35,449 nt of DNA from Candidatus Eiseniibacteriota bacterium (lineage in GTDB: Bacteria; Eisenbacteria; RBG-16-71-46; CAIMUX01). Positions 303 through 35,314 of the stretch are shown here, one piece after another (position 1 is the stretch's first letter; each line of letters begins with the position of its first letter). The translations under genes and the position numbers were made by a program. The stretch spans positions 1 to 35,449 of the forward strand of contig CAIMUX010000084.1 of the NCBI GenBank assembly GCA_903844735.1. The letters run 5' to 3'. The notes under the pieces were generated by a model that was not told where the DNA came from, did no database searches, and saw only the letters and a list, made by a program, of their open reading frames with translations.

Positions 303-881
303 TCAGGGCAACAGGATCATCCGTCGGCTCTCATCGACGCCGGGTGCCGTGAGCTGATAGAAGTAGATCCCGCTCCCGACCTTCTCCCCCGCGTCGTCTC
401 GGCCATCCCAGTTTGCGGTGTGCCGTCCGGCCGGTCGCGCATCCTTCACAAGACGGCGTATCAGGCGCCCATTCACGCCGTAGATCACGAGATCCACCGG
501 ACCGGTCTTCGGCAGGTCAAAGGCGATCTCCGTCTCGGGAGAAAACGGGTTCGGCTGGTTCTGGAACAGGTGGACGGCTTTCACGAGTGCCGCAGCGTCC
601 CGAGGATCAACCACGCCGGAGTTGGCCGGCGACCAGAGGAACTCGATCCGCACGACGGTCGCCGCGCCATAGCGCTCGGTGCCGCCAGCATGCACCACCA
701 CCAGCGTGTCACCCTCGAAGCCGATCCGGTGCAAATCGTTGACGGGATAGTTCGCCATCTCGCCCCCAACGAGCCGGACCGAGAGCCACGGGATGTCCGC
801 CCGCGCCTGGGGCGCCGCACCGAGGCAGGCCAGGAGCGCCAAGCCAATCCACGCAAAACACAGGACCTGGGACCGTGACAT
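303..881 (-). CDS. Small secreted protein with C-terminal FlgD-type Ig-like domain
   Basis: The product is about 192 residues. A signal peptide (roughly residues 1-28, ending near ARA-DIPW) is followed by a short beta-rich section. That section carries two related halves of the type 'polar turn, hydrophobic strand, Arg-Ile-x-Phe' (RIGF and RIEF). The C-terminal ~85 residues form a FlgD/CHU-type Ig-like domain: an NQPNPFSPETEI opening, an IYGVNGRLIRRL strand, a WDGRDDAGEKVGSGIYFYQL core and a terminal strand. In FCB-group bacteria such domains cap secreted or surface proteins and resemble type IX sorting modules. The ATG at 881 was chosen because it opens the signal peptide and has GGAGGTG upstream, with somewhat long spacing. 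A TTG at 923 is in frame but would put a non-signal stretch first. The exact role is unknown. Confidence 0.8.
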   Translation of the reverse strand: MSRSQVLCFAWIGLALLACLGAAPQARADIPWLSVRLVGGEMANYPVNDLHRIGFEGDTLVVVHAGGTERYGAATVVRIEFLWSPANSGVVDPRDAAALVKAVHLFQNQPNPFSPETEIAFDLPKTGPVDLVIYGVNGRLIRRLVKDARPAGRHTANWDGRDDAGEKVGSGIYFYQLTAPGVDESRRMILLP

Positions 882-1076
882 TCGCCTCACTGGCACCTCC
901 GGTGGGAAAAACAACCCATGCAATAGATCGCAAACCGGTATGAGTAGAACATTCCTGTCCGGGTGATGGCAAACAAGGCAAGATGGCGGAGGATCACGGG
1001 GCAGCCTTGTGCCGGGGGGCGCCCCGATCGGCTACCCCTCCAGTCTTCCGTGTTTCCAGGAGATCATCGACACCTC

Positions 1077-1158
1077 TGTCATTTCTCACGATCTTGACCC
1101 AGGTTTAGGGCGAGTTTCTCACGATCTTGACCCACCCGATTCTCACGGTCTTGACCCA
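1077..1158 (+). repeat. IS21-type left terminus with three 19-bp direct repeats
   Basis: Three near-identical copies of TTCTCACGATCTTGACCCA lie at 1083-1101, 1116-1134 and 1140-1158; the third has one change (GGTC for GATC). A TGTC at 1077 could be the element tip. Multiple short terminal repeats starting with TG just ahead of istA are characteristic of IS21-family elements, where they bind transposase. The gene fragment right after them is istA-like, which supports the assignment. No matching right end was found in the window. Confidence 0.65.
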
Positions 1159-1202
1159 CCCCCTGAGGCCGTGCCGGACCATCATCACCTCCAACCAAGG
1201 AG

Positions 1203-1290
1203 GTGCAGGTGGTCTTTCGGGAGCACGGTATGTGGGAGATCCAAGAGGTTCTTCGCCGCCTCGGTCGGGGCGAGAGCCAGGTGGTGGTTG

Positions 1291-1307
<17 letters not shown>
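1203..1307 (+). pseudogene. istA (IS21-family transposase) N-terminal fragment
   Basis: From a GTG at 1203 the frame reads [10 protein letters not shown], then [15 protein letters not shown], then a run ending in ATGL. This is the start of the helix-turn-helix found at the N-terminus of IS21-family IstA transposases. The similarity stops after about 35 residues, where the same DNA passes, in another frame, into an IS1634/IS4-like transposase. It is therefore only a fragment: no integrase catalytic core and no istB follow. Its position directly after the IS21-type terminal repeats confirms the original arrangement. Confidence 0.65.
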
Positions 1308-2221
<914 letters not shown>

Positions 2222-2223
<2 letters not shown>

Positions 2224-19753: not shown

Positions 19754-21127
19754 TCAGTCCCGACGGTCCATCCCCGTAGATGGGCCGTTCGAAGTCGATC
19801 CGTTCGCAGGGCCTCGGTCCGAAGTCGATCCGACTGCGGAGTTGTCGTCCGAAGTCGGTTCGCCCGCGGAACCCCCTTCCGAGGGTGATCCATCCTCGGG
19901 TGCGGGCCCGCCGATCTCCACCAGACGCCGTTGCGGCCAGGGATGCGGTCCGAGGGGCAACCGTCGGTCCACGCGGTCGGTGAAGAAGCGTACCTTGCGT
20001 CCACCACGATCTCTCCCTGTTTCCAGTGCCAAGTCCGTGGCGTCAGCGATGCCGCCATCCTCGCGCTCTTCGCCCTTCACGCCCTCTTCGCCCTCTTCGT
20101 CCTCTTCGTCGGCGAGCTCCCGGGCGAGCAGGGCCGCCGCCGTGGCCGGCTCCGCCTCGCGCAGTTCACGCAGTCTGGTGCCCAGGATCTCAAGCAGTTC
20201 CGGGATCCCAGCACCGGTCGAGGCAGAGATCCGCAGCGGCTCGGTACCGAGAAGCGGCGCCAACTCGCCCCCCTGAGCCAGGTCGGCCCGGCTGTAGGCC
20301 ACGAGTCGTGGTCGCCTCCCCAGCGCCCGGCTGAACGCCGCCAGCTCGCCCAGAAGCGTGTCTAGATCCTCGGATGGATGCGGCGAGGCGGTATCGATCA
20401 GAAAGAGCAGGAGCCGCGTCCGCTCGATGTGCCGCAGGAAGCGCAATCCCAGCCCGCGGCCCTCGTGCGCCCCCTCCACCAACCCCGGCAGATCGGCCAT
20501 CACGAACGAGTCGTACTCGCCGATCGCCACGATCCCCAGGTTCGGCTGCAAAGTCGTGAACGCATAGTCGCCGATCTTCGGCGTGGCGTTGGAAAGTCGC
20601 CGCAGCAGTGTCGACTTCCCGACATTCGGCAACCCGACGAGCCCGACATCCGCCAGCAACTTCAGCGCAAGACGAAGCTCCGATTCCTCACCCAAAGTAC
20701 CGGGCGTGGCGATGCGTGGGGCGCGCCGAGTACTGCTCTTGAAATGGACGTTCCCCTTGCCGCCCCTTCCGCCCCGCGCCACCAGAACACGCTGCCCCGG
20801 CGTCACCAGGTCAGCCACCGGCCGGCCGGTCTGCCCTTCTTCGACCACGGTGCCCGCGGGTACCGCGATCACCGAGTCTCGCCCGCCCTCCCCGAACATC
20901 TGCTTTCCGGCCCCGTCCGCGCCGCTCCCGCCGGCGAAGAACCGTTCATGTCGGAATCGGAGCAGGGTGTGGATGTTTGGATCGACCACGAGCCAGACAT
21001 CGCCGCCGTCGCCGCCGTCGCCGCCATCCGGCCCCCCCTTCGGCACGAATTTCTCGCGGCGGAAGCTGACACAGCCGTGACCTCCGTTGCCCGCCCGCAC
21101 CTGGATGACAGCCTCGTCGATGAACAT
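19754..21127 (-). CDS. obgE: GTPase ObgE/CgtA
   Basis: A ribosome-associated GTPase for 50S assembly and stress control, 457 residues. The N-terminal glycine-rich Obg fold is typical (FIDEAVIQVRAGNGGHGCVSFRREKF, then GGPDGGDGGDGGD), followed by the G domain with G1 GLPNVGKST (about 165-173) and G3 DLPGLVEGA. The G4 position reads SRAD (279-282), where the family normally has NKxD. After the G domain comes an acidic stretch (ADEEDEEGEEG), a basic module, and a Ser/Gly/Asp-rich tail built from a 30-bp tandem repeat. The ATG at 21127 starts the conserved MFIDEA. It sits between the FmdB-type gene and dprA. rplU and rpmA, frequent upstream neighbours of obgE, are absent. Confidence 0.95.
   Translation of the reverse strand: MFIDEAVIQVRAGNGGHGCVSFRREKFVPKGGPDGGDGGDGGDVWLVVDPNIHTLLRFRHERFFAGGSGADGAGKQMFGEGGRDSVIAVPAGTVVEEGQTGRPVADLVTPGQRVLVARGGRGGKGNVHFKSSTRRAPRIATPGTLGEESELRLALKLLADVGLVGLPNVGKSTLLRRLSNATPKIGDYAFTTLQPNLGIVAIGEYDSFVMADLPGLVEGAHEGRGLGLRFLRHIERTRLLLFLIDTASPHPSEDLDTLLGELAAFSRALGRRPRLVAYSRADLAQGGELAPLLGTEPLRISASTGAGIPELLEILGTRLRELREAEPATAAALLARELADEEDEEGEEGVKGEEREDGGIADATDLALETGRDRGGRKVRFFTDRVDRRLPLGPHPWPQRRLVEIGGPAPEDGSPSEGGSAGEPTSDDNSAVGSTSDRGPANGSTSNGPSTGMDRRD
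19791..19890. repeat. 30-bp tandem repeat encoding the ObgE tail
   Basis: Units beginning GAAGTCGATC start at 19791, 19821 and 19851, with a degenerate fourth at 19881 (plus-strand view). The period is exactly 30 bp, giving a 10-residue repeat in the ObgE C-terminal tail. The overlapping dprA frame is also open through it. In-frame copy-number variation is therefore possible. Confidence 0.8.
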
Positions 21128-21229
21128 GGCCTCAGACCCGAACCGAGATGGTCGCTACACCACCGTCGGCGTCGCGCCACCCACCAGAGGAGAAGCCAAT
21201 GTCATGCCACCCCAGCGGTCGCTGTCCTG

Positions 21230-21703
21230 TCACTTCGCGCCCTCCGTGGACTTGCCGTCCTTCTTCGCCGCAGGCCTGCGGCCTCCATCGGAGCCCCCGT
21301 CGGAGCCACCATCGGAGCCACCATCGGAGCCTCGTCCGGAAGGCTTCGGGCCATCCCTTTGGCCACCGTCTTGGCCCCCCTTCTGGCTACCGTTCTGGCC
21401 GCCCGTTTGACGATCCTTCGGGCCCTCCTTCGGCGCCGAGGCGGAGTCAGCCGCGGGCTTCGCCCCATCCGCCGTGCCCCCTGCGGGGGACGATTCCGCC
21501 TTGGCCTTCGCCTTATACTCCGAACTGCGGTAGTCGGTAATGTAGAAGCCGCTCCCCTTGAAGAGCAACCCGGCTCCCGCACCGATCAGCCGTTCTGTTT
21601 TCTTTCCACATTTCGGGCAGCGCTTCCGTGGCGGATCGCTCATCTTCTGCACCACCTCGTACTGGTGTTTGCAGGCCGTGCAGCGATAGTCGTACGTCGG
21701 CAT
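21230..21703 (-). CDS. FmdB-type zinc-ribbon protein with repeat-rich tail
   Basis: A 157-residue protein with an N-terminal FmdB/CxxC regulatory zinc ribbon: MPTYDYRCTACKHQYEV, with Cys8, Cys11, Cys29 and Cys32 as likely zinc ligands. The remaining 110 residues are a low-complexity Lys/Gly/Ala/Ser tail that includes four Gly-Ser-Asp-Gly units encoded by a 12-bp repeat. Family members are usually 70-110 residues, so the tail is long. Such proteins are implicated as regulators in methylotrophs but are mostly uncharacterised. The ATG at 21703 has AAGGA 7 nt upstream. It lies 38 nt after the aminotransferase stop and 102 nt before obgE, so it is probably co-transcribed with both. Confidence 0.88.
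   Translation of the reverse strand: MPTYDYRCTACKHQYEVVQKMSDPPRKRCPKCGKKTERLIGAGAGLLFKGSGFYITDYRSSEYKAKAKAESSPAGGTADGAKPAADSASAPKEGPKDRQTGGQNGSQKGGQDGGQRDGPKPSGRGSDGGSDGGSDGGSDGGRRPAAKKDGKSTEGAK
21288..21335. repeat. 12-bp tandem repeat in the zinc-ribbon protein tail
   Basis: Four 12-bp units of the form TCGGAGCCACCA (at 21288, 21300, 21312 and 21324) encode the Gly-Ser-Asp-Gly repeats of the zinc-ribbon protein. Units two and three are identical, which suggests recent slippage. Confidence 0.85.
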
Positions 21704-21741
21704 CCAGGTCCTTTCTTCTCGTTCCTCGTTCCTCGTCCAAC

Positions 21742-22941
21742 TCAGCGCAAGCGCGCCAGGACCGCAATCATGGAGCTGAGCCCCTCCTCTATAACCGTCT
21801 CGGCGCAGGCGAAGGAGATCCGCAAGTGCCGGTCCGAACCGAAAGCGTCCCCCGGCACCAACACCACGCGCGCCGTGTCGAGAAGGAACTCGGCCATGCC
21901 TTGCGACCCCGACACCGCCGTCCCCGTTCCGTCGAGCGAAAGGCCATAGTAGGCAGAGAAGTCGGGAAAGACATAGAAAGCGCCCTTCGGTGGCACCACA
22001 CGCAGCTTGGACGCCTGCGCCAAGAGCTCCAGGACCCGCGTCCGCCGCCGCGCAAACGTCTCGGTCATCACGCGAACCGTTGCGTCGTCGCCGGTCAGCG
22101 CACAGAGCGTCGCTTCCTGCGAAATGCTGCACGGGTTCCCCGAAAGATGGCTCTGCATCGCCACGGCCGGATCGGCCCAGTCGCGCGGAGCCGCCAGGTA
22201 CCCGATGCGCCAGCCGGTCATGGAGAATGCCTTGGAGACGCCGTTCACCACGGCCGTCATCTCGCGCAGGTTCGGACTCACGGCGGCCGGACTGACATGC
22301 ACCGCGCCGTCGTAGAGGATCCGCTCGTAGATCTCATCGGTGATGAGATGCAGGCCGCGCTCGGCCAACACGCGACCGAGCGCCTCCAGCTCAGAGCGTT
22401 CGTAGACGCTTCCGGTGGGGTTCGACGGCGTGTTCAGGATGATGGCCACGGTGCGCGGGGTGATGGCCGCCGCTAGTTGCTCCGGAGTGATCTTGAAACC
22501 GGTCGACTCGTCGGTGGGCAGGATCACCGGCACGCCGTCGAGAAGCTGGATCATCTCAGGGTAGGAGACCCAGAACGGAGCGGGCACCAAGACCTCGTCC
22601 CCCCGGTCGATCAGCACGGCCAGCGCCATGTAGAGCGCCTGCTTGGCACCGGCAGAAACAACGATCTCGTCCGGCCCATACGTCAGCCCGTTGTCGCGCT
22701 CCAATTTGGCGCAAATCGCGCGCCTAAGTTCCACGGTCCCCTGCGGGCTGGTGTAGACGGTCTTGCCGTCCTTGATAGCCTGGATACCGGCGGCGGAGAT
22801 CGCTTCCGGCGTGGGGAAATCCGGCTGGCCCGCGCCGAAACCCCACAGCTTCACCCCTGTGGCCTTGAGCTTCCGCGCCTTGTCGTCGATTGCCAGCGTA
22901 GTCGAGAACCGTGCTGTCTTGGCCCGATTGGAACGTTTCAT
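21742..22941 (-). CDS. PLP-dependent aminotransferase, aspartate type (class I)
   Basis: A cytosolic transaminase of 399 residues in fold type I, most like the AspB/aspartate aminotransferase Ib branch (aspartate + 2-oxoglutarate to oxaloacetate + glutamate; prephenate is an alternative substrate in this branch). Visible signatures are GFGAGQPDFPTPEAI, YTSPQGTVELRRAI, VSAGAKQALYMAL, the substrate loop NTPSNPTGSVY, DEIYERILYDG, and the PLP lysine Lys237 within NGVSKAFSMTGWRIGY. The Arg of RISFACAE binds the substrate carboxylate. The ATG at 22941 overlaps the coaD stop in an ATGA arrangement, so the two are translationally coupled. The precise substrate cannot be fixed from sequence. Confidence 0.95.
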   Translation of the reverse strand: MKRSNRAKTARFSTTLAIDDKARKLKATGVKLWGFGAGQPDFPTPEAISAAGIQAIKDGKTVYTSPQGTVELRRAICAKLERDNGLTYGPDEIVVSAGAKQALYMALAVLIDRGDEVLVPAPFWVSYPEMIQLLDGVPVILPTDESTGFKITPEQLAAAITPRTVAIILNTPSNPTGSVYERSELEALGRVLAERGLHLITDEIYERILYDGAVHVSPAAVSPNLREMTAVVNGVSKAFSMTGWRIGYLAAPRDWADPAVAMQSHLSGNPCSISQEATLCALTGDDATVRVMTETFARRRTRVLELLAQASKLRVVPPKGAFYVFPDFSAYYGLSLDGTGTAVSGSQGMAEFLLDTARVVLVPGDAFGSDRHLRISFACAETVIEEGLSSMIAVLARLR

Positions 22942-25212: not shown

Positions 25213-25357
25213 GGTCCGCCCGCGCCTCCGTCTCCGCGTGCGTTGGATGGTAGCAGATGCTCGGGCTGGGCGGTACCGGCGCGTCGGGTGGGCTGGATGG
25301 GTTAGCCCGGGCGGGAGAGGTTCGCCGCAGCGCAGAAGCCGCCCCCATCTACAGGAG

Positions 25358-25390
25358 AACCCCGGTTCTCCCTGCGGGAAAACCGGGGTT
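25358..25390. other. Very stable hairpin between the PorV-like gene and tatA
   Basis: A perfect 10-bp stem, AACCCCGGTT (25358-25367) with AACCGGGGTT (25381-25390). After one mismatch it continues as TCCC-TGC-GGGA inside the loop. It lies 51 bp downstream of the PorV-like gene stop, in the right place to end that transcript, but no T-run follows on either strand. A transcript-end or RNA-stability structure for the envelope operon is the likely role. Confidence 0.6.
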
Positions 25391-25440
25391 CGTGCTCTTG
25401 ACGAATCCGGCGGTACGCCGGACGCGCCCTCGATCGCGCG

Positions 25441-26460
25441 CTAGAAGCTGAACTTCGCCGAGAAGGTGTGGAGATCGTCGAACCAGGTGTCGATCGATTG
25501 GAACGCGTAGTCGACCGTGATCCACGACCCGCTCACCGGGATGTTCACGCCGACCCCGAAGGTCGGCCCGTACATGTAGTCCGACTGCCCCGAGTAGGCA
25601 TAGCCGCCCCGAAGCATGAAGATGTCGCGGTAGGAGTACTCCACCGCGCCGCGCCCCTCGTCGTCGCTGAAGTTGTTACTCTGGAAGCCGCCGTATGCGG
25701 TGACGATGTTGTCCCCCTGCTGCCATGCGCGGATCTCGCCGCCCATCTGGAAGTACGAGGGAAGCTCGAAATCGCTGGAGAGGGTGCTGACCGTGCGGTT
25801 CGAGGCCTGAGGATCATCCCCCGGGACGCGCAGCGAGTACTCGAAATCCGAGCCGCTGAACCGCATGTTCGGACCGAAGTTCTTCATGGCGATGCCGAAC
25901 TTCATCCCCTGCCACCGGGAGTCGTAGTGGAGCCCGAGATCGAAGGCCAAGCCCCTGGCTGTGGCCGACAGCACGCTCTCGCTCACGTAATTCCCCGTCA
26001 TGCCGAAGCTGATCTCATCGGTGACATAACGGGCATAACTCAAGCCCAGGGTGGCGAAGGTGATTCCCTTGACCTCACCCGTTCCCTCTGGCGCGTTGAC
26101 GGTCGTCACATAGAGGTCGCCCACATCGAGAATCTTGGCGTTGATGCCCAACACACCGCCCCCTTGCCGCGCTGCGAGGGCAAAGTACCGAACCTTCATG
26201 TCGGCCAGGTAGTTGGTGTTGGAGAAGAGCACCTCGGTGCCCCGGGCCGCACCCAGCCCGGCCGGGTTGTAGTAGATCGACTCCACCCCATGGTTGCTGG
26301 CCACGGTGGCCCCCCCCAGGGCGAGCCCCCGCGTCCCCACCGGGATACGGAGTTCCTGCGCTCCCGCCGTCCCGATCCGCCGCGAGTTCCCGGCCTGCGC
26401 CGGAGCGACAAGGATCGCGACCGCCAGAAGGAGTGCGATGACTTGGATCGTTCGCTTCAT
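25441..26460 (-). CDS. PorV/PorQ-like outer-membrane beta-barrel protein
   Basis: An outer-membrane protein of 339 residues with a signal peptide (about 1-24, ending PAQAG). The opening RRIGTAGAQELRIPVGTRGLALGGA and SIYYNPAGLG is the hallmark of the PorV/UPF0164 family ('G-A-x-x-L-x-x-x-x-x-A-R-x-x-x-(L/M)-G-G-A ... N-P-A-G-L'). A series of alternating beta-strands follows, and it ends in AKFSF with the terminal aromatic expected for BAM-dependent insertion. In Bacteroidota PorV carries type IX secretion substrates to the attachment complex; in other FCB phyla the function is unproven. It is the last of three genes (TonB receptor, FlgD-Ig secreted protein, this one), 44 nt after its neighbour. 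The ATG at 26460 has GGAGG 10 nt upstream. Confidence 0.85.
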   Translation of the reverse strand: MKRTIQVIALLLAVAILVAPAQAGNSRRIGTAGAQELRIPVGTRGLALGGATVASNHGVESIYYNPAGLGAARGTEVLFSNTNYLADMKVRYFALAARQGGGVLGINAKILDVGDLYVTTVNAPEGTGEVKGITFATLGLSYARYVTDEISFGMTGNYVSESVLSATARGLAFDLGLHYDSRWQGMKFGIAMKNFGPNMRFSGSDFEYSLRVPGDDPQASNRTVSTLSSDFELPSYFQMGGEIRAWQQGDNIVTAYGGFQSNNFSDDEGRGAVEYSYRDIFMLRGGYAYSGQSDYMYGPTFGVGVNIPVSGSWITVDYAFQSIDTWFDDLHTFSAKFSF

Positions 26461-26504
26461 GGTAGAAAAACCTCCCGCTTCCTGGATTCCCTTCCGGCGC
26501 TCGC

Positions 26505-29500
26505 CTAGAAGGTGTTCAGCCGCTCCTTCTCGACGAAGATCGCCATCCGGCCGGTGGTCGTTCCCATCGCGGCGCCGGCGGCGTTCTTTCCTTCGATGTG
26601 GTAGATGTACACGCCGCTGCCCACCGGCAACCGGCGATCGGTCTGTAGGTCCCATGCGAGGAACGAGCTGCTCGGGTTGTCCTTCTCGAGCGTGCGGACC
26701 AGGTCACCGGCGAGGTTGAAGATCCGCACCGTCGCCATCGGCGGCATGCGCGTGAACTTCACCACCCGCTCGAACTGGTTCATTTCGTAGGCGGAGTGCG
26801 CGAAATACGGATTCGGCACCACGCGGATGAGCGAGAGGTCGTTCTTCATCACCGAAGCGTCGAACTTCACGCCTCGGGTGGCGATGGTGAACTTGTCGAG
26901 CGGGGTGTTCGGCTTGGTGGTGGAAAATTGGATCACCGTCCCCGTCGCGGGCAAAACCGGCGGTCGCGCCTCGTTCACATCAGGCGTCTCCGGGTCATCC
27001 TCGATCTGCGCGGACCCGATGACCATGCGAGCGATCAGCTCGACACCGGCTTCGCCGGTCACGTCCACATCGATCACGCCGTTATCGCGGGCATCGGCGA
27101 CAAAGTCCGCATAGGTGCCGGCGTTCGGATCAATGGTAAAGACGTAGATCCAATCGGTGATCAGGTACCCGAAGACCGCGTCGACATCCACGGAATCGGG
27201 GGCGAAGTCGAACACGCCCGGGGTATAGGTTCCGTTCATTACCGGGATCAGTCGGACATCTTCGCCATCGGCCGGATTGCGCTGGTAGAGCCCGAACGGC
27301 ACGTGTGCGGCCTGACCATCATTGAATGACCACCAGGCGTAGTTATCCGGATCATCATCCCACTTCATGATGATGTCCCAACCGGAGTTGTTCGCTTCAC
27401 TGCGCACGAAGCGGCTGATGGCGGAGGTCTCCGTCCCGTCACCACCCCCTACCGCTATGATGTACGTCCCGGTCGAACCGATGCTGAGGAAGAGGTCGTT
27501 GCCCGGGCCACCCCACTTGTCCGGTGGAACCGGCTGGGGGACCCCCAGGCTGTCCGGCGCCATGATCTCATCGACCATGGGACGAGGTCGCGTGTTCCGC
27601 TTGAACCCGGGAATCGCGCCCACGACCTTCCAGAGGATGCCGTCCGCCTCAGCGTAGACCTCGTCTCCTGTCTGATTGCGCTGATGAGCCAGGACGGTCC
27701 GCCCACCGGTGGTCTTGAGATCCCAGAAAGCGCCCACGGAATCCGCGTCGAAGGTGACCTCGTACGTCTCCCCGGTGGTCGCAGCCGGGTTGAGCAGGAT
27801 CGGGTAGACTCTTCCGTCGCTCGTTCCCGCGTGGACGACGTTCAGCGTGTCGCCGGCCCCGCCGTCGCCCAGGATGGTCCCAGCCGATGGCTGCTGTGGC
27901 ACGAGCTCGATCGGGTCGATGGAGTTCTCCAGGGTCTTGAGGCCGGCCGCGGCGGAGTCGCCGTACCCATAGGCTGTCACCCCGAAAAAGTAAGACCGGC
28001 CGTTCCGCAACGTGCCGCCACGGTTCTCGTCGGTCGTGATCATGACCCGGCGTCTGATCCCGCTGTCGGTGCCGAACTGCACCGGCTTGTTGATCACGAC
28101 GCCCGTCTCGAGGTCGAACTGGTCGTCGAAGATGAACGCGAGATTGTCGCTCAGGTCGTAGGTGACGACCCGCTTCCACGGCCCGGCCACCGACTCTCCC
28201 ATGTAGACGTTGTACCCCTCGAAAACGTAACCCGGTTCGTCGTACGTCGTTTCGGAGGTGTCGCCCCAGTACAGGACGATCTCGTTGTCGACGCGCGCCG
28301 CGTTCACGACGGGCCGGGGCGGCGGGCTGGGCAGGTCGAAGTTCGCGTCGAACGCGGCCTGCGCGAACTTGTCGTTGAATTTCAGGGCGGTGATGCTGGT
28401 CAACCGGTCCTTCCCCTGCCCTACGATCACGGCGCAGACCACCGTTTGCGTATCGCCCGGAGCCATGGTGAACGGGCCGGAGGAGAGCATCATGCGCCGG
28501 TCGGCCGGGTTGCTGTCCAGCCAACCGGTGGCCTTCGTCGGGTCGCCGGCGTGCATGAACTTGCTGGGAAGGTTGGTCGTGGGGTCGATGACCGTCGCCC
28601 CGTCGGCCGCGAGGCCTTGCTGGTAATAGTAGGCCTTCGCCGGCGAGTCGGGATCGGTCCCGTTGATGTACTTGTTGAAGGAGGTCATCGGCAGTTCTCT
28701 GCCGTCATCGCCGATGGGCCCCTGGAAGAAGTCGAACCCCACCGCGGGCGGAGTCGACGCGTATATATTGTCGGTGTTGGTGGCGTTATAGCAGTACCCG
28801 AGGGACAGCGTGGTGTCGCAGCCGACGAGGTCGTCCGACGAGCCGCCGAGGTCCGGGTCCGACCAGATCGACACATACGTGTCCACGAGAGTGTTGGCAC
28901 CCTTGTTGATGATCAGGTACTTCATGAAGATCACGTCCCCGAGGGAGCCGGTCCGGTTGAAGGCGAACGTGGTCTGCTGGATCTCGACGCCCAGCCCGAT
29001 GGCGCTAGCCGCGTTGTTGGCGACCCGGCTGGAGTCGTTGAAGACGCTCCAGATCGTCTGGTCACCGATCAGCCCGGGCAGACTGTCCGGCCCGACGACC
29101 GGCGCGCCGTCGGCACGCGGCCAGTTCGCGTAGTCGGCACTGGTCGGGCCGTCGCCGAGGGTGATCTTGTAGGCCTGGTACCGGGGGTTCGTCGGATCGG
29201 CCGGCCGGCCGTTGGGCAGGATCGGTCCGGGCCCGTAGGTGTTCGAGTACTCGGCCACCGAGGTGCGGACCTGGCCGTCTACCTTGGCGCCGATCCAGAT
29301 CCCGGCCGCGTAGATCGCGGCCTTGTTCGTCCCCTTTGGGAAGATCAGTCCCGAGTTGCCGGTTCCGATGTTGTACGCAAACGACCCCTGGTTCGTCACG
29401 AACATGTCCAGGTTGTTGACGTCCATCCGGGTGTCCGTATCGTAGTCCTGGGGCACCGGGGTGGCCGTACGCACTTGCACGTCCGCCCCGGCCGCGCCGG

Positions 29501-29564
29501 CAACAAGAATCAGCCCAAGCAGGCACAGAACCGTTCCGGTCCGCACCCATCCTCTCCGCTTCAT
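26505..29564 (-). CDS. Large secreted/surface protein with C-terminal FlgD-type Ig-like domain
   Basis: About 1019 residues. A signal peptide (1-27, hydrophobic core TVLCLLGLILVAGAAGA) is followed by a long beta-rich, Asp/Asn/Gly-rich ectodomain. Fibronectin-like stretches are visible near the middle (IVLYWGDTSETTYDE and YNVYMGESVAGPWKRV). The C-terminal section opens LSLIRVVPNPYFAHSAYE, continues as VRIFNLAGDLVRTLEKDN and WDLQTDRRLPVGSGVYIYHI, and ends RLNTF. This is the FlgD/CHU-type Ig module used by many FCB-group bacteria at the end of exported proteins. No catalytic motif was recognised. Its place between a TonB receptor gene and a PorV-like gene suggests a SusD-like partner or a PorV-dependent export substrate. 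The ATG at 29564 was chosen because GGAGG lies 6 nt upstream. Confidence 0.8.
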   Translation of the reverse strand: MKRRGWVRTGTVLCLLGLILVAGAAGADVQVRTATPVPQDYDTDTRMDVNNLDMFVTNQGSFAYNIGTGNSGLIFPKGTNKAAIYAAGIWIGAKVDGQVRTSVAEYSNTYGPGPILPNGRPADPTNPRYQAYKITLGDGPTSADYANWPRADGAPVVGPDSLPGLIGDQTIWSVFNDSSRVANNAASAIGLGVEIQQTTFAFNRTGSLGDVIFMKYLIINKGANTLVDTYVSIWSDPDLGGSSDDLVGCDTTLSLGYCYNATNTDNIYASTPPAVGFDFFQGPIGDDGRELPMTSFNKYINGTDPDSPAKAYYYQQGLAADGATVIDPTTNLPSKFMHAGDPTKATGWLDSNPADRRMMLSSGPFTMAPGDTQTVVCAVIVGQGKDRLTSITALKFNDKFAQAAFDANFDLPSPPPRPVVNAARVDNEIVLYWGDTSETTYDEPGYVFEGYNVYMGESVAGPWKRVVTYDLSDNLAFIFDDQFDLETGVVINKPVQFGTDSGIRRRVMITTDENRGGTLRNGRSYFFGVTAYGYGDSAAAGLKTLENSIDPIELVPQQPSAGTILGDGGAGDTLNVVHAGTSDGRVYPILLNPAATTGETYEVTFDADSVGAFWDLKTTGGRTVLAHQRNQTGDEVYAEADGILWKVVGAIPGFKRNTRPRPMVDEIMAPDSLGVPQPVPPDKWGGPGNDLFLSIGSTGTYIIAVGGGDGTETSAISRFVRSEANNSGWDIIMKWDDDPDNYAWWSFNDGQAAHVPFGLYQRNPADGEDVRLIPVMNGTYTPGVFDFAPDSVDVDAVFGYLITDWIYVFTIDPNAGTYADFVADARDNGVIDVDVTGEAGVELIARMVIGSAQIEDDPETPDVNEARPPVLPATGTVIQFSTTKPNTPLDKFTIATRGVKFDASVMKNDLSLIRVVPNPYFAHSAYEMNQFERVVKFTRMPPMATVRIFNLAGDLVRTLEKDNPSSSFLAWDLQTDRRLPVGSGVYIYHIEGKNAAGAAMGTTTGRMAIFVEKERLNTF

Positions 29565-29631
29565 CTGCATCCTCCATAGTCCGGCCCGCATCGAGGCCGG
29601 TTCCCCGGGCATCCCGCCCGGTTTTCCCCGC

Positions 29632-32475
29632 CTAGAAGCTGGTCTTGAGGCCGAAGCGCACCATGCGCGGGATCCCGAAGTTGCTCGGGTTCGTTTCCTT
29701 CAGCTTAAACGCCGCGACGCCTGCGGCCCCAAAGTCCTGCGCCCACTTGCGGCCTTCCTCGGTCGCAAGCCAGCCGGTGGTTCGGGCCGACCCGCTCGAC
29801 TGGTAGACATTGAGTTCGGAGACCGTGTCGAACAGATTGAGGATCCACACGAAGGCGTCGATCCCCATGCCGCCCGCGTTGAAACTCCGCGTCAGCTTGC
29901 CGTCGACCCGGTGCGTCCATGGGCCGTAGCGCGAGTTGATCGGGCCGGTCGGGGTGGTGCTGACCGCGGCCAGGGTGACCTCGTTCTGCGTCACGATCGG
30001 CGTATAAGGGAACCCGCTGGCCGCGTTGAAGAGGATGTTCAGGTTCAGCTTTTCCAACGGCCGGAAACCGGCCACCTGCGGCCCCATGTCTTCGTAGGTG
30101 CGATAGTCGAGGTTCAACGAGAGCTTGTGGCGCTGGTCGAACGACAGCGGCGAGGTCTGCTTGGGTGCTTCGGAGATCGTCCAGGCGATGTTTCCCTGGC
30201 TCGTAGAAATGGATCCGGTGCCGTTGGCGAAGGAGAGGCTGTAGGACGCGCTCCCCGACACACCCATCGTCTCCATCACCTGCACGTTCAAATCGACACC
30301 CTTGATGGTGCCGAAGTCGCTGTTCCGGAAAGAAGCGAAGTTGGCCGGGATGGATGGCTGGTTCTGGACTTGAACCAGGTTCTGCACGTCCTTGTAATAG
30401 GCGGTCGCGTCCACGCGGAGCTTCGAGCTCGGCGCGTGTGTGATGCCGACCTCGTAGGCCGTGGTCGTCTCCGGCTGCAGGTTCGGATTCCCGAAGGGGA
30501 AGTAGTAGCCGCCCATGCGGATCTTGTACTCGAGATAGCGGTAGCTGGTGTACAAGTCCTGCAGGTTCGGCTGCTGGAAGAACCTCCCGTAGTTGGCATG
30601 GAAGAGGGTCTTCTCGGAGACCGGGAAGCCGACGCCGAGCCGCGGGCTGATCTTGTTCTTCGCTTTGGAGGCCGTGAGGTCGGAGGGATCGAGGTTGGAG
30701 GCGTTGTCGCCCGCCAGCGGTCGGTTCGCGTTGACCAGCATCTGGGTCTTCGGATCGAGGTAGTCATACCGGATGCCCGCGTTCACGACGAAGTCGCTGT
30801 ACTCGTACTTGTTCTGCACGTAGGCCGAGGCCGACAGGGGGTGTTTGGCCCCATCCTCGAACAGGCCTTCCTTTCCGTTGAGCTCCGTGGTTCCGAGGCG
30901 ATCGTAACCGTAGTTGACCACGTCGTCGAGGCCGCCGCCGTCGACCCCGAGGTAGTAGGTGGCCGGGTAGAGGGCCTGGTAGAAGCGTAGGGTGTGGCGC
31001 TGCAGGTCGACGCCGAACTTGGCGGCGTTGTGCTCGCTCCACTTGTGGGTCATGTCTCCGGTAAGGCCGACGTAGGACGACTTCCGATGCTGATAGTCGT
31101 CCACGACCCGTCCCGGTGTGGAGTCGTGGTCGGCCGGCCAGAAGAGGCTGTAGAGGTCCATGCGGCGATTGCCGATATCCTCGACCCAGGTCGAGTCCGG
31201 TCCCTCGTGGCGCGTGCGGAGACGGCCGTAGGCGTTCAGGTTGTTGAAGAGGATGCCGTCCCCCGACTCGCGCTCGGTCATGAAGTAGTTACCGCTGAGG
31301 TTGAAGTAGGTGTCGGGATTGAGCTTGTCGGTAAAGGTGGCGAAGTAGGACGAGTTGCGGTCCTCGTACCGCGGCATGTGGGCGCCCGTGAATCGGTAGT
31401 TGTGAATGTACTCCTGCCAGTCGTCCCGGGAGCCGAGCGTCCCGGCCTTGAGGCCCATCCCAGGCGACAGCTTCCAGGCGACCTTGCCCTGCCACGTCCA
31501 GCCGGAGAGCTGGTTAAACGGCAGCGGTCCGTCGGCGAGGGAACGCGGCGAGCGGTCCTTCTGCCACCGGCGCTCACCGGAGGCGAAGAAGGTGACCTTG
31601 TCGTTGTCCGGCAGGAGCGGCCCGCCGAGCGACGCCCCGTAGATGTTGTAGTCGTATTTCTTGGCCCCGACCCACGCGCCGCCAATGTTGTCGGTGACCG
31701 CTTCGAGGGTTCCGAAGTACTTCGCGCCGCCCTCCTTGGTCACGACGTTCACCGCGCCGGACATGATGCGGCCGTACTCGGCGGCGAAGCCACCGGTCAT
31801 GACGACGACCTGCTCCACCGCATTGGTGTTGATGCTGGTGGTCGAGTACCCGGTCAGCGGATCCTGCTGGGAGAAGCCGTCCACGAAGTAGGCGACCTCG
31901 TTGGCGCGTCCGCCGCGGATGAAGAGGATCGGATTGTTGGTCGTCTCGTTGCCCGCCAGGTCGACGGTCGTGGAGCCCTGACTGCTCACGACACCCGCCT
32001 GGATGGATGCGGCGTCCTGGTAACCGCGGGTGGGCAACGAGTTGTACTGCTTGCTGTCCAGGATACGGACGGTGGACGTGGCGTCGCGCTGGAAGACCGG
32101 ACGCTGCGCCTCCACCTTGACCGCATCCAGCGTGGTGGCCACCGTCTGCTCCAAACTGAAGTTCAGCTCGGTGGTGAAGTCCGGCGCCACGAGGACATTC
32201 TGGATCAGGAGCGGTTTGTACCCGATCACCTGCGCCTGAACGTCGTACGTCCCGGCCCCCACGTTGAGGATGAAATAGTTGCCGTCCGGACCGGTCGATG
32301 CGCCCATCGTGGTCGTCACGATGATCACCGCCGCACTGGCGATCGGCTCGCCCGTGCCCGCATCCTTGACGACTCCGGAAATCTTGCCCACCGTGCCGGC
32401 GGAAGCCGCTGTCGCAACAACCCCCGCCAGCAGCAGGACAAGACCGGTGCGAATGAGAGTTCGTTCGTGGAACAT
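29632..32475 (-). CDS. TonB-dependent receptor with N-terminal carboxypeptidase-regulatory-like domain
   Basis: An outer-membrane receptor of 947 residues. A signal peptide (1-26) leads into a carboxypeptidase-regulatory-like beta-sandwich (about 30-110: ISGVVKDAGTGEPIASAAVI, GNYFILNVGAGTYDVQAQ), then a TonB plug domain (about 125-245: ILFIRGGRANEVAYFVDG, VVVMTGGFAAEYGRIMSGAV, NVVTKEGG), then a 22-strand-type barrel region. That region has aromatic-rich strands (YFNLSGNYFMTERESG, ISPRLGVGFPVSEKTLFHANYG, RFFQQPNLQDLYTSYRYLEY) and ends GLKTSF. This layout is that of SusC/CirA-like receptors of FCB bacteria, which import oligosaccharides, peptides or metal chelates; the substrate is not deducible. 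It is the first gene of a three-gene minus-strand unit. The ATG at 32475 has a G-run just upstream. Confidence 0.92.
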   Translation of the reverse strand: MFHERTLIRTGLVLLLAGVVATAASAGTVGKISGVVKDAGTGEPIASAAVIIVTTTMGASTGPDGNYFILNVGAGTYDVQAQVIGYKPLLIQNVLVAPDFTTELNFSLEQTVATTLDAVKVEAQRPVFQRDATSTVRILDSKQYNSLPTRGYQDAASIQAGVVSSQGSTTVDLAGNETTNNPILFIRGGRANEVAYFVDGFSQQDPLTGYSTTSINTNAVEQVVVMTGGFAAEYGRIMSGAVNVVTKEGGAKYFGTLEAVTDNIGGAWVGAKKYDYNIYGASLGGPLLPDNDKVTFFASGERRWQKDRSPRSLADGPLPFNQLSGWTWQGKVAWKLSPGMGLKAGTLGSRDDWQEYIHNYRFTGAHMPRYEDRNSSYFATFTDKLNPDTYFNLSGNYFMTERESGDGILFNNLNAYGRLRTRHEGPDSTWVEDIGNRRMDLYSLFWPADHDSTPGRVVDDYQHRKSSYVGLTGDMTHKWSEHNAAKFGVDLQRHTLRFYQALYPATYYLGVDGGGLDDVVNYGYDRLGTTELNGKEGLFEDGAKHPLSASAYVQNKYEYSDFVVNAGIRYDYLDPKTQMLVNANRPLAGDNASNLDPSDLTASKAKNKISPRLGVGFPVSEKTLFHANYGRFFQQPNLQDLYTSYRYLEYKIRMGGYYFPFGNPNLQPETTTAYEVGITHAPSSKLRVDATAYYKDVQNLVQVQNQPSIPANFASFRNSDFGTIKGVDLNVQVMETMGVSGSASYSLSFANGTGSISTSQGNIAWTISEAPKQTSPLSFDQRHKLSLNLDYRTYEDMGPQVAGFRPLEKLNLNILFNAASGFPYTPIVTQNEVTLAAVSTTPTGPINSRYGPWTHRVDGKLTRSFNAGGMGIDAFVWILNLFDTVSELNVYQSSGSARTTGWLATEEGRKWAQDFGAAGVAAFKLKETNPSNFGIPRMVRFGLKTSF

Positions 32476-33129
32476 AGGCCCCCCTTGCCTGGATCCTTAG
32501 GCCCTTAGATTCTTCTCCGGACCAGCCCCTCCCGGACGACCTCCCTGGTCCATCCTGGCCCGGTGCCGCGCAGCGCCCTCAGCCCGCAGACAGGCGTCCA
32601 AACGGGGTGGCGCGCCAAAGCACATGCGCATTCTCAGCGCCGCGCACGGCCTATACTCATGCCCGGCACGACGCTAGGTCCGATCTTCTGACCCTGTCAA
32701 GCATCAATATGAGTGGCGCAGGCCGACGATCGCACGGCCCGGTCCGAGAATCGGCCCTGACCTCGCCTGCCGAAGGCCGCGTCGCTTCACTTCCGACACA
32801 CCGGAGCGTATCGGAACCAGGGCCATCCACCCGGTGGACAGCGAGCCCCTCGATCGCTGCTCACGGATCTGATTCCGACATCGGCTGCCGGGAGTCGGTG
32901 CCTTAGCGGCAAGTCGCACGATCAGAAGGGCGGTCTGCACCCCCCTGTTCCGTCCGGCCCGGCCGACTCCCCTCCGGTGGTGATCCGTAACGTCGCTCGC
33001 CCATGGGAGTTTGGGGTTACGAGACCCCGGCGGTTTGCCGATGAAGAAGAACGGCACGGCGCCTGCCATGCCATCCGGGGATCCCGCCTGTGGATGGCGG
33101 TCCGGATACGCATCTATCGGGAGGTTTGC
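32476..33129. other. Divergent intergenic region between the TonB receptor and pilin genes
   Basis: About 650 bp with no supported gene; open frames here are shadows of composition or of the pilin gene. It must contain the promoters of both divergent units. Two adjacent small hairpins (GGGGT-TACGAG-ACCCC at 33013-33028 and CGGC-GGTTT-GCCG at 33028-33040) lie about 90 nt before the pilin start and may structure its leader. No riboswitch consensus was recognised. Confidence 0.5.
32671..32700 (-). promoter_or_regulatory. Possible sigma-70-type promoter for the TonB-receptor unit
   Basis: On the minus strand a perfect TTGACA (32700-32695) is followed, after 18 bp, by TAGCGT (32676-32671), a weak -10. 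It would give a leader of nearly 190 nt before the receptor ATG. The -10 match is poor and the organism's promoter consensus is unknown. Confidence 0.3.
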
Positions 33130-33669
33130 GTGCATCGTCCTTGCGGAATGGGCAATCGGCGCCCCGGGCGAAATCGGGTCGAGAAGGGCCGAGCCCGCGG
33201 CACGGCGTCCGGGTCGGCGTTCGGGTCGGGTCCGCGGGCGGGCTTCACCCTCGTCGAGCTGATGATCGCACTGGTCCTGCTCAGTGTTGGGGTCATGGCG
33301 ACGGCGCAGGTTTTCGCCATAGCCAACCTCCACACCTCCCACGCTCGAGAGGAGACGGCCGGGAACTGCCTCGCGCAGGAGATCCGCGAGAAGATCATGA
33401 GTGAGTCGTTCGCCGACATTCGTTCGATCTTCAACGCCATCGACACCAACGTGCCGGCCAGTGTGCCCGCTCCAGCCGCGACCTGGGCAGCCCACGTTAC
33501 CGCCGAGTTGGGCCCCCAAGGACGGGGCACGGTGTTGGTCAACACTCCGACCCAGGATGCGACGATACCCAATGGCATGATCGCAGTCACGGTCACGATG
33601 TCCTGGCGGGAAGGTTCACGCACGGTCAGCCTGCCGCTTCGCTTCAACGTGGCCAAGACAAGTCCCTAA
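33130..33669 (+). CDS. Type IV pilin-like minor (pseudo)pilin, PilV-like
   Basis: A 179-residue prepilin-like protein. The prepilin peptidase site is GPRAG/FTLVELMIALVLLSVGV: cleavage after Gly38 with Phe39 as the new N-terminus, Glu43 at mature position +5 and a hydrophobic helix of about 20 residues. The C-terminal part is a small beta-rich domain (VTVTMSWREGSRTVSLPLRF) as in PilV-type minor pilins. The leader is 38 residues and strongly basic, longer than the 5-25 usual for type IV pilins. The GTG at 33130 was chosen because GGGAGG lies 5 nt upstream; an ATG at 33148 would shorten the leader by 6 residues. The next gene starts 13 nt after the stop, so the two form an operon. Confidence 0.87.
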   Translation: MHRPCGMGNRRPGRNRVEKGRARGTASGSAFGSGPRAGFTLVELMIALVLLSVGVMATAQVFAIANLHTSHAREETAGNCLAQEIREKIMSESFADIRSIFNAIDTNVPASVPAPAATWAAHVTAELGPQGRGTVLVNTPTQDATIPNGMIAVTVTMSWREGSRTVSLPLRFNVAKTSP

Positions 33670-33682
33670 CGGAGGCCCACTC

Positions 33683-35314
33683 ATGGACGCCGCCATCCGA
33701 CGCTCCTCCCGGGAGGAGGGAAGCGCGCTTCTCTTAGCGCTCCTCGTCCTCGCCGCGCTTTCCATCCTGGCCACGACCGCCATCGTGACCTCGATGGGAG
33801 AGCGCAACCTCTCCCGGTACGAGAGCGGCTCGGTGCAGGCCCTGGGTGTCGCCGAAACCGGCATCGCCTATGCCAAGCGGGCCATCGTTGACCGGACCGT
33901 CACCATGACCGACGCCGACGGCGACGGCCGCCCCGAATTCGAGCTCACGGACAGCCTGGCCTGGGGCGGCACGTACCATGTGATCGCCGAAGCCTCCGAC
34001 GTCAAGGGGCTGGGGATCTCGGCCTACCAGTCGAACGGGTTCGCCATCGTCTCGGAGGGCGAGTTCCACGGAGCGCGCCGGCGGGTCAAGGTGGAGATCG
34101 TCCACGACAGCTTCCTCAAGTTTGCGCGTTTCGTTTCCGCCGGTACCCTGACCTACGGCTGCGATGCCCTCATCACCGGCGAGATCTATACCGGGGAAGA
34201 CCTCGACATTGCGTGCGGCTGCAGCGCCAACCGGGAAGACAGGTTCTTGGAGAGCGTCTTCGTGGTAGGAGACATCCCCGACGCAGCCTGCGGCACCTTC
34301 TATCGTGGGTATGTCACCGACGCCGACACCATCGACCTGAGCAACTCCTTCAACTGGGCCGACATGGAGGCCAAAGCCAAGGGGACAGCTACCGGCGGCA
34401 GCGCCTGCGAGCGGCGGGGAAGCGTGGGGATCTACATCGACCTCCCCGCCGTCCATGTGTTTAAGGATCCGCTCGGGCTCAACGCGCAGGCCGCCCCCAA
34501 CGCCGGCGTGCTGCTCTTCGACCGGTTTGACTTCCACAACGCGACGCTGGACGCGCCGGATACCGTCATCACCTACAACGGAAACCCGGTGTTCAACACG
34601 GTCACCGGGCTGCACCTGCGCGCATCGCAGTTCAACGGTATCGTCTTCTTCGAGAGGGACGCCAATGTGAAGGGGGCGTTGACGTTGGGGAACAAGATCG
34701 ACGGGGTGAGCGCGCGCAACCTCACCGTCTTCGCCACCCGCTACATCATCGTTCGGGGGGACATCATCACCGGCCATACCGGGTTCGATCCAGTGACCCG
34801 GGCTGCCAACCAGTCCGGTGATCCTGCCAACATCGGGCTGGTGGCGGAAAGCCAGATCCAAATCCCCGCGGGTGTCCGCCGCGTGCTGCGCATCGACGCG
34901 GCCCTGCTCTCCCGGACCAGCAACTGGGCAGCCTTCGGGGACCAAACCACCAGCGCAACCACCGGCCACCCCTCGGCGGCGCCGGGCCCGCTCGACCTCG
35001 ACCTGGACGAACTCATCGAGACCCCGTACAACAACGACCCCGCAGCAGGGGAAGGCTGGGACGAACAGACCATCACCCTCAACACCTGGGTGTTGAATAT
35101 CACCGGGCCGATCATCACCAACGTCGGCGGAAGTGCCGGCCCATGGGTCGGCACCCCCAGCCCGCTCGGGCCGACCCGCCGCTACAACTACGACATGGAT
35201 ATGACCGAGTTTCCGCCGCCGTGCTTCCCCGTCCCGCTGAACCTGTACAAGGATGTCTCCTGGACCGAGATCTTCGAGGTGCGCACGCCGTTGGCGAGCT
35301 GCCTCCCTAACTAA
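33683..35314 (+). CDS. PilX-like pilus assembly protein with large exported domain
   Basis: A 543-residue protein with a PilX-type N-terminus: a short basic start, EEGSALLLALLVLAALSIL as the hydrophobic helix (about 12-36), then the polar helix GERNLSRYESGSVQALGVAETGIAYAKRAI typical of pilus/pseudopilus proteins with an 'A-E-x-G-x-x-(Y/A)-A' motif. The long remainder is predicted extracytoplasmic and beta-rich. It has several Cys (YGCD, CGCS, DAACGTF, GSACERR, and two near the end) that could form disulphides. Phrases such as GEIYTGEDLDI, NVKGALTLGN and YIIVRGDIITG suggest a right-handed repeat or beta-helix. Family members of this size act as tip or scaffold proteins in type IV pili or pseudopili. 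GGAGG is 7 nt before the ATG. It is co-transcribed with the PilV-like gene. Confidence 0.82.
   Translation: MDAAIRRSSREEGSALLLALLVLAALSILATTAIVTSMGERNLSRYESGSVQALGVAETGIAYAKRAIVDRTVTMTDADGDGRPEFELTDSLAWGGTYHVIAEASDVKGLGISAYQSNGFAIVSEGEFHGARRRVKVEIVHDSFLKFARFVSAGTLTYGCDALITGEIYTGEDLDIACGCSANREDRFLESVFVVGDIPDAACGTFYRGYVTDADTIDLSNSFNWADMEAKAKGTATGGSACERRGSVGIYIDLPAVHVFKDPLGLNAQAAPNAGVLLFDRFDFHNATLDAPDTVITYNGNPVFNTVTGLHLRASQFNGIVFFERDANVKGALTLGNKIDGVSARNLTVFATRYIIVRGDIITGHTGFDPVTRAANQSGDPANIGLVAESQIQIPAGVRRVLRIDAALLSRTSNWAAFGDQTTSATTGHPSAAPGPLDLDLDELIETPYNNDPAAGEGWDEQTITLNTWVLNITGPIITNVGGSAGPWVGTPSPLGPTRRYNYDMDMTEFPPPCFPVPLNLYKDVSWTEIFEVRTPLASCLPN

Follow-up and report, generated by a model that had tools for sequence, protein, structure and literature searches.

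Several described envelope systems resemble a cluster of three genes on contig CAIMUX010000084.1 (35,449 nucleotides) of a Candidatus Eiseniibacteriota bacterium (GCA_903844735.1); the window analyzed here is this entire contig, and the draft genome is 5.4 Mb long and ~96% complete. The SusCD/RagAB systems of Bacteroidota consist of a TonB-dependent transporter with a CarboxypepD_reg extension and a large surface partner, and they occur in several copies per genome; in the BtuB-BtuG system of Bacteroides thetaiotaomicron, the transporter has the surface lipoprotein BtuG as its partner. In the attachment complex of Porphyromonas gingivalis, surface proteins with a C-terminal domain (CTD) are held by anchoring barrels, PorZ by PorQ and PorU by PorV (PMC5562754), and both PorU and PorZ keep their CTDs (PMC11285876). 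In Flavobacterium, including F. johnsoniae, PorP/SprF barrels serve in both the secretion and the retention of type B CTD cargoes, and the cargo gene often adjoins that of its own shuttle or anchor barrel; type A cargoes are said to rely on PorV alone (PMC9143113, PMC12618676).

The window carries, on the minus strand, the genes of a TonB-dependent transporter (R), a large surface protein (M), and a PorV/PorQ-family barrel (B), separated by gaps of 67 nt (R-M) and 44 nt (M-B), which confirmed the tightly packed, one-strand trio of envelope genes reported in a first-pass annotation of the sequence. All three proteins have signal-peptide-like N termini by inspection. The trio shares with SusCD/RagAB the extended transporter, the large surface partner, and the presence of several copies per genome, and differs in that M has no SusD match, has an ordinary signal peptide with no evident lipobox (by inspection), carries a tail of the type IX secretion system (T9SS) type, and has its own PorV/PorQ-family barrel, and in that R scores below the SusC NCBIfam cutoff. 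It shares with BtuB-BtuG the combination of transporter and surface partner, and the BtuB1 chain 8blw was among the best structural matches of R (Z, 30.1); unlike BtuG, M shows no lipid tag in its sequence, and its head is predicted to be a super-sandwich. PorZ-PorQ, likewise a CTD surface protein with an anchoring barrel, gave the best NCBIfam tail and barrel matches, whereas the trio adds a TonB-dependent receptor, is present in several copies per genome, resembles PorZ only in the tail of M, and scores below the PorQ and PorZ equivalog cutoffs. The type B cargoes and their PorP/SprF barrels have the same adjoining gene layout, whereas the trio combines a barrel of the PorV/PorQ family with a type A-like CTD and additionally includes a receptor. 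Each part of the trio belongs to or resembles a known family, and the proposed export and anchoring route would be unusual; no description of the three-gene block was found in the open-licence literature searched.

The proposal that the trio is a SusCD-like or BtuBG-like uptake complex, in which the lid is delivered by type IX secretion and, in place of a lipid anchor, has a PorQ-type barrel of its own to hold it, stands in our judgment at about an even chance. The first-pass annotation had offered a SusCD-like uptake system and a dedicated export or anchoring route as alternatives; the evidence favors both together, each probably being half right, because R has the architecture of an importer and M and B look like a T9SS cargo and its cognate barrel.

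Architecture of the receptor, surface protein, and barrel

Domains were searched with Pfam and NCBIfam, structures were modeled with AlphaFold2, and models were compared by Foldseek and VIA-align (VIA). The N-terminal extension of R gave profile matches to the N-terminal domains of a SusC homolog and a TonB receptor (9hfj and 6ytc), and the following TonB-box-like motif had the consensus VxVxAERP, with A123 and P126 nearly invariant among 25 R proteins. The R model was a plugged TonB-dependent barrel (predicted local distance difference test [pLDDT], 79; predicted template-modeling score [pTM], 0.81) that matched BtuB, Cir, FhuA, PirA, and the BtuB1-BtuG1 chains with VIA Z scores of 27 to 32, including 538 residues aligned to BtuB at 2.5 Å (Z, 31.6). 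In this model, R is built like a TonB-dependent importer. The SusC/RagA family model TIGR04056 gave only 58.9 bits against a cutoff of 368, strongest in the N-terminal part, which leaves R outside that family by score. SusC was absent among the best 50 VIA matches listed for the R model, which does not exclude a SusC likeness.

The first-pass annotation had described M as a FlgD-Ig protein without a recognized catalytic or binding motif. The first label is weak for M itself, which had no Pfam match, including none to a glycoside hydrolase (GH) family, and whose best match was the T9SS type A sorting domain (TIGR04183) at 21.6 bits, below the cutoff of 23; the second description holds for the sequence and fails for the predicted head, whose fold is recognizable. 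The M model (mean pLDDT, 79.9; pTM, 0.74) was confident in the head and tail and poor at residues 657 to 870, and in an alignment of 56 M proteins the head and tail were conserved and the middle was variable. The head matched the N-terminal domains of GH15, GH65, GH94, and GH116 enzymes over 233 to 271 residues at 3.0 to 3.8 Å (Z, 18 to 20; top VIA matches) with about 10% identity, and its fold partners by Foldseek and VIA-align included dextran dextrinase, glucodextranase, glucoamylase, and GH116 and GH94 enzymes. In these enzymes, catalysis resides in a helical barrel, and the super-sandwich is a noncatalytic part. Beyond residue 411, the M model was strand rich, with no catalytic (alpha/alpha)6 helical barrel, and we therefore infer that the head is a binding or scaffold module; a role of M as a hydrolase is unsupported, as the super-sandwich comes without the catalytic barrel. 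A fold shared with domains of glycan enzymes is no proof that M binds glycans. Within the head, an acidic motif had W234, D236, D238, G240, and D245 invariant and D244, G248, and D250 nearly so in the 56 proteins, and our guess from this conservation is a metal or ligand site.

The tail of M was matched to PorZ in 21, to the T9SS type A tail in 17, to PorU in 12, and to FlgD_ig in 9 of 25 relatives; the 17 type A matches were to TIGR04183 at an E value of ≤0.01 (best, 1.3e-6). Profile searches against solved structures gave PorU (6za2; E value, 0.04) and PorZ (5m11; E value, 0.93), both weak matches. A PNP motif was invariant and G953 was nearly invariant among the 56 proteins.

The PorV family model NF033709 (PorV_fam) was matched by all 25 B relatives examined. 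Of the equivalog models, PorQ gave B its best score (70.5; cutoff, 220), followed by PorV (49.6; cutoff, 250) and PorV2 (48.0), all below their cutoffs, and the B family profile matched F. johnsoniae PorV (6h3i) with an E value of 8e-19. BamG (NF053685) gave no match to B at 1e-5 and weak matches in 2 of 25 relatives, and B as a BamG was rejected since it scores far better as PorV/PorQ. The coordinates of the trio and its domains are collected in Table 1.

Table 1. Coordinates of the trio, its domains, and an adjoining hairpin in the window
Feature	Position	Strand	Evidence or remark
R, TonB-dependent transporter, 947 residues, signal peptide, N-terminal extension	29632..32475	-	PF13620/PF13715, PF07715, and PF00593 above cutoffs
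R residues 31-112, CarboxypepD_reg-like N-terminal extension, SusC-type	32140..32385	-	PF13715, 52.3 bits; PF13620, 57.4 bits
R residues 117-126 (DAVKVEAQRP), TonB-box-like motif	32098..32127	-	By inspection
R residues 129-241, plug domain	31753..32091	-	PF07715, 39 bits (cutoff, 23.9)
M, surface protein with signal peptide, 1019 residues	26505..29564	-	Open reading frame; alternative upstream in-frame ATG would give 1035 residues
M residues 40-411 (approximate start), predicted super-beta-sandwich head	28332..29447	-	pLDDT mostly 85-98; VIA; Foldseek E value, 4e-7
M residues 234-250, acidic motif WSDPDLGxxxDDLVGxD	28815..28865	-	Conserved in 56 M proteins
M residues 905-1019, T9SS-type CTD	26508..26852	-	Closest to retained CTDs of PorZ and PorU
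B, PorV/PorQ-family outer-membrane barrel, 339 residues	25441..26460	-	NF033709, 146.6 bits (cutoff, 90)
Hairpin 3' of B, 16 bp, terminator-like, no T-run	25357..25391	-	Minimum free energy, -56.4 kcal/mol for 25345-25440; z, -5.98

Linkage, duplication, and genomic context of the trio

M-like matches were found in 50 of 59 related genomes, many of them long and with 45 to 56% identity. In the neighborhoods of the best matches, R, M, and B lay on one strand wherever the contig was long enough, with the exception of loci L073 and L077; the arrangement was not seen around more distant M paralogues (loci L048, L049, and L081 to L087). A survey of named genomes covered the best 80 of 355 stretches encoding M relatives, with the presence of R, M, and B judged by profiles built from relatives and with phylum names taken unchecked from the labels of the deposited records. 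A complete trio was present at 64 of the 80 loci; R was found at 70 of the 74 with upstream room, and B was found at 65 of the 68 with downstream room. Five loci were flagged as exceptions, but at L169 B lies in an overlapping frame and at L178 the best M adjoins a complete trio, which leaves L170, L204, and perhaps L180 as genuine exceptions. With linkage thus near universal and recurring across phyla, the chance proximity of the three genes allowed for in the first-pass annotation was not borne out and is rejected.

The records bearing the trio were labeled Eisenbacteria, Zixibacteria, Ignavibacteria, Calditrichaeota, Marinimicrobia, KSB1, Delongbacteria, Cloacimonetes, and GN15, with a further one labeled "Gemmatimonadetes" and others labeled Bacteroidetes or Chlorobiaceae; the named strain Stygiobacter electus 09-Me (locus L145) carries it as well. 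A location outside Bacteroidota, as the first-pass annotation had it, therefore agrees with many other phyla and is qualified by the loci labeled Ignavibacteria, Bacteroidetes, and Chlorobiaceae. A nearby true SusD, which that annotation had said would make this an ordinary SusCD locus, was looked for, and no SusD_RagB match (PF07980) was found in the host genome or in eight relatives, the control Bacteroides being positive. An ordinary SusCD locus is rejected, since no SusD was found and the partner differs.

The host genome contains four divergent trios, in the window and on contigs C22, C121, and C64, the last with the differing order R-B-gap-M; the other host TonB receptors whose surroundings were examined had no adjoining M or B match. 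Two named loci, L161 and L168, each contain two tandem trios. Between these genomes the first units were 93 to 94% identical and the second units were 88 to 93% identical, while first and second units were 33 to 52% identical to each other, and the trios were therefore duplicated as whole units. Distance correlations between R, M, and B were 0.73 to 0.84, values that cannot separate coevolution from shared descent.

The host genome encodes SprA (478 bits; cutoff, 200) and PorU (496 bits; cutoff, 420), and the 16 trio genomes from other phyla that were tested all had SprA over its cutoff. In addition, there were 9 PorV-family genes above the cutoff, 8 C25-peptidase matches, 12 TonB barrel matches within 11 reading frames, and 9 TonB_C matches, so that TonB proteins are encoded. 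With 119 FlgD_ig matches, the number of potential type IX cargoes in this one genome, which lies outside Bacteroidota, is very large. Other PorV-family barrels adjoin CTD proteins in this genome, which supports M and B as cargo and cognate barrel. On contig C15 (L116:5879-10805), a PorV-family protein whose best equivalog is PorV lies beside a 1210-residue protein with a CTD-like end, and on contig C138 (L119:8864-11883), a PorV-family or PorV-like barrel lies beside a FlgD-tailed protein; neither pair has an R match nearby. On contig C142, a giant protein with a T9SS-like tail (L114:1-8685; open frame of 5990 residues) directly precedes a fusion of a PorV-family barrel with an OmpA-type domain (L114:8689-10257), which looks like a one-gene PorP+PorE-style anchor.

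The neighbors of the trio recurred lineage by lineage and included genes for GWxTD proteins, lipid A acyltransferase, heptosyltransferase, aminotransferase, and, by eye, glutamate dehydrogenase. As a clue to the substrate they were uninformative, since they differ between phyla. One family adjoins the trio at 25 of the 80 loci (for example, L145:14444-15838 and L147:14571-16103), downstream in Ignavibacteria, Calditrichaeota, and Cloacimonetes and upstream in Eisenbacteria; both members scanned matched the GWxTD domain, that of L147 below the cutoff, and the family may be a fourth partner. In Ignavibacteria, genes for a lipid A acyltransferase and a heptosyltransferase lie directly downstream of the trio (L145:15838-17726 and matching loci). 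Locus L139 has four tandem copies of a secreted family upstream of R, starting roughly SRVEGMG...YLSQFTDDYVNIYPYPSSVVRQNNLVLAELG; members of this family stand upstream of R at ten Eisenbacteria loci, and one relative had no Pfam match. Elsewhere in the window, minor pilin-like genes for a PilV-like N_methyl protein and a PilX_N protein (32977-35314, plus strand) run divergent to the trio, and the contig end carries a 242-residue open frame with a C-terminal FlgD_ig domain (306-1031, minus strand; 38.2 bits) next to a DDE transposase gene (1009-2223, plus strand). A 523-residue open frame without a Pfam match (20378-21949, plus strand) may be a shadow of opposite-strand genes, and an Rfam scan of the window gave no match.

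Proposed uptake complex and competing readings

In the proposed uptake complex, R would be a TonB-energized importer at the outer membrane, as suggested by its plug, barrel, and TonB-box-like motif and by the presence of TonB_C genes. M would cross the inner membrane by means of its signal peptide; its CTD would then direct it into the SprA channel for passage across the outer membrane. B, as the PorV/PorQ-type barrel belonging to M, would catch it and keep it on the surface with an intact tail, as PorQ does for PorZ; this export and anchoring route is proposed because the tail of M resembles PorZ and PorU, B resembles PorQ and PorV, and SprA and PorU are present. The head of M would then lie beside or over R and bind or present a ligand for TonB-driven import, so that M would fill the role of SusD or BtuG. 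The ligand would probably be a glycan or glycoconjugate, a suggestion made because of the head fold and the weakest in the scheme.

Several findings weigh against the uptake complex. The best structural matches of R import small ligands (BtuB, siderophore, and heme transporters) and are not SusC, and M is 34 to 49% identical across phyla, which is high for a substrate-specific lid. No carbohydrate-active enzyme was recognized beside the trios in a scan that covered only some neighbors; with the super-sandwich itself noncatalytic, the ligand is unproven. On the export side, the presence of SprA alone is no proof that M is exported, and GldL and GldM were unmatched in searches in which no control genome gave a match either. 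Moreover, the genome has a PorU sortase that might cleave the tail of M, in which case B would act only as a shuttle.

The high conservation of M across phyla is also what would be expected if the canonical trio were an envelope-building machine, like the BamG-BamH canopy on BAM, instead of a nutrient importer. BamG, a barrel of the FadL family, has a partner at the surface (PMC12611786) and is weakly matched by 2 of 25 B proteins, and lipid A acyltransferase and heptosyltransferase genes adjoin the trio in Ignavibacteria. Such a housekeeping role is nevertheless unlikely: B scores far better as PorV/PorQ, the neighbors vary between phyla, the trios have multiplied and diverged within one genome, and some genomes of the class have no good M match.

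A second alternative turns R outward. Oar of Myxococcus is a long TonB-dependent transporter whose N-terminal extension is needed for PopC secretion (PMC6434023); R is also extended, and no nutrient genes were recognized near the trio, so that R might help M or another surface protein out, with M and B as the surface product. The T9SS-type tail of M and the SprA of the genome mean that M need not depend on R for its export, and R matches importers structurally, which makes an export or assembly function of R quite improbable. Finally, M could be a plain T9SS cargo with a PorV-like shuttle; PorU would cleave it for release or for attachment to lipopolysaccharide, and R, unrelated, would act alone. 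The PorU sortase, the many FlgD_ig matches showing CTD-like proteins to be common, and the receptor-less PorV-like and CTD pairs of the host genome would allow this, but very few units in any phylum lack R, which has been duplicated together with M and B, and the tail of M resembles the retained class, so that this reading is very doubtful.

The broader form of the preferred uptake reading is that the FCB (Fibrobacteres-Chlorobi-Bacteroidetes) superphylum has widespread uptake machines in which type IX secretion delivers the ligand-binding lid of the transporter and the lid stays docked for good on a PorV/PorQ-type barrel of its own; we hold it tentatively, at somewhat less than an even chance. 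If true, it would join two systems hitherto treated apart and would extend cargo-specific shuttles from PorP/SprF barrels with type B tails to the PorV family with type A-like tails, implying that PorV-family barrels can be cargo-specific anchors. It would also explain how TonB-dependent transporters obtain a surface partner in bacteria without a detected SusD, and type IX secretion would gain a structural role in nutrient uptake. A function for the trio would at once annotate many hypothetical proteins across little-studied phyla.

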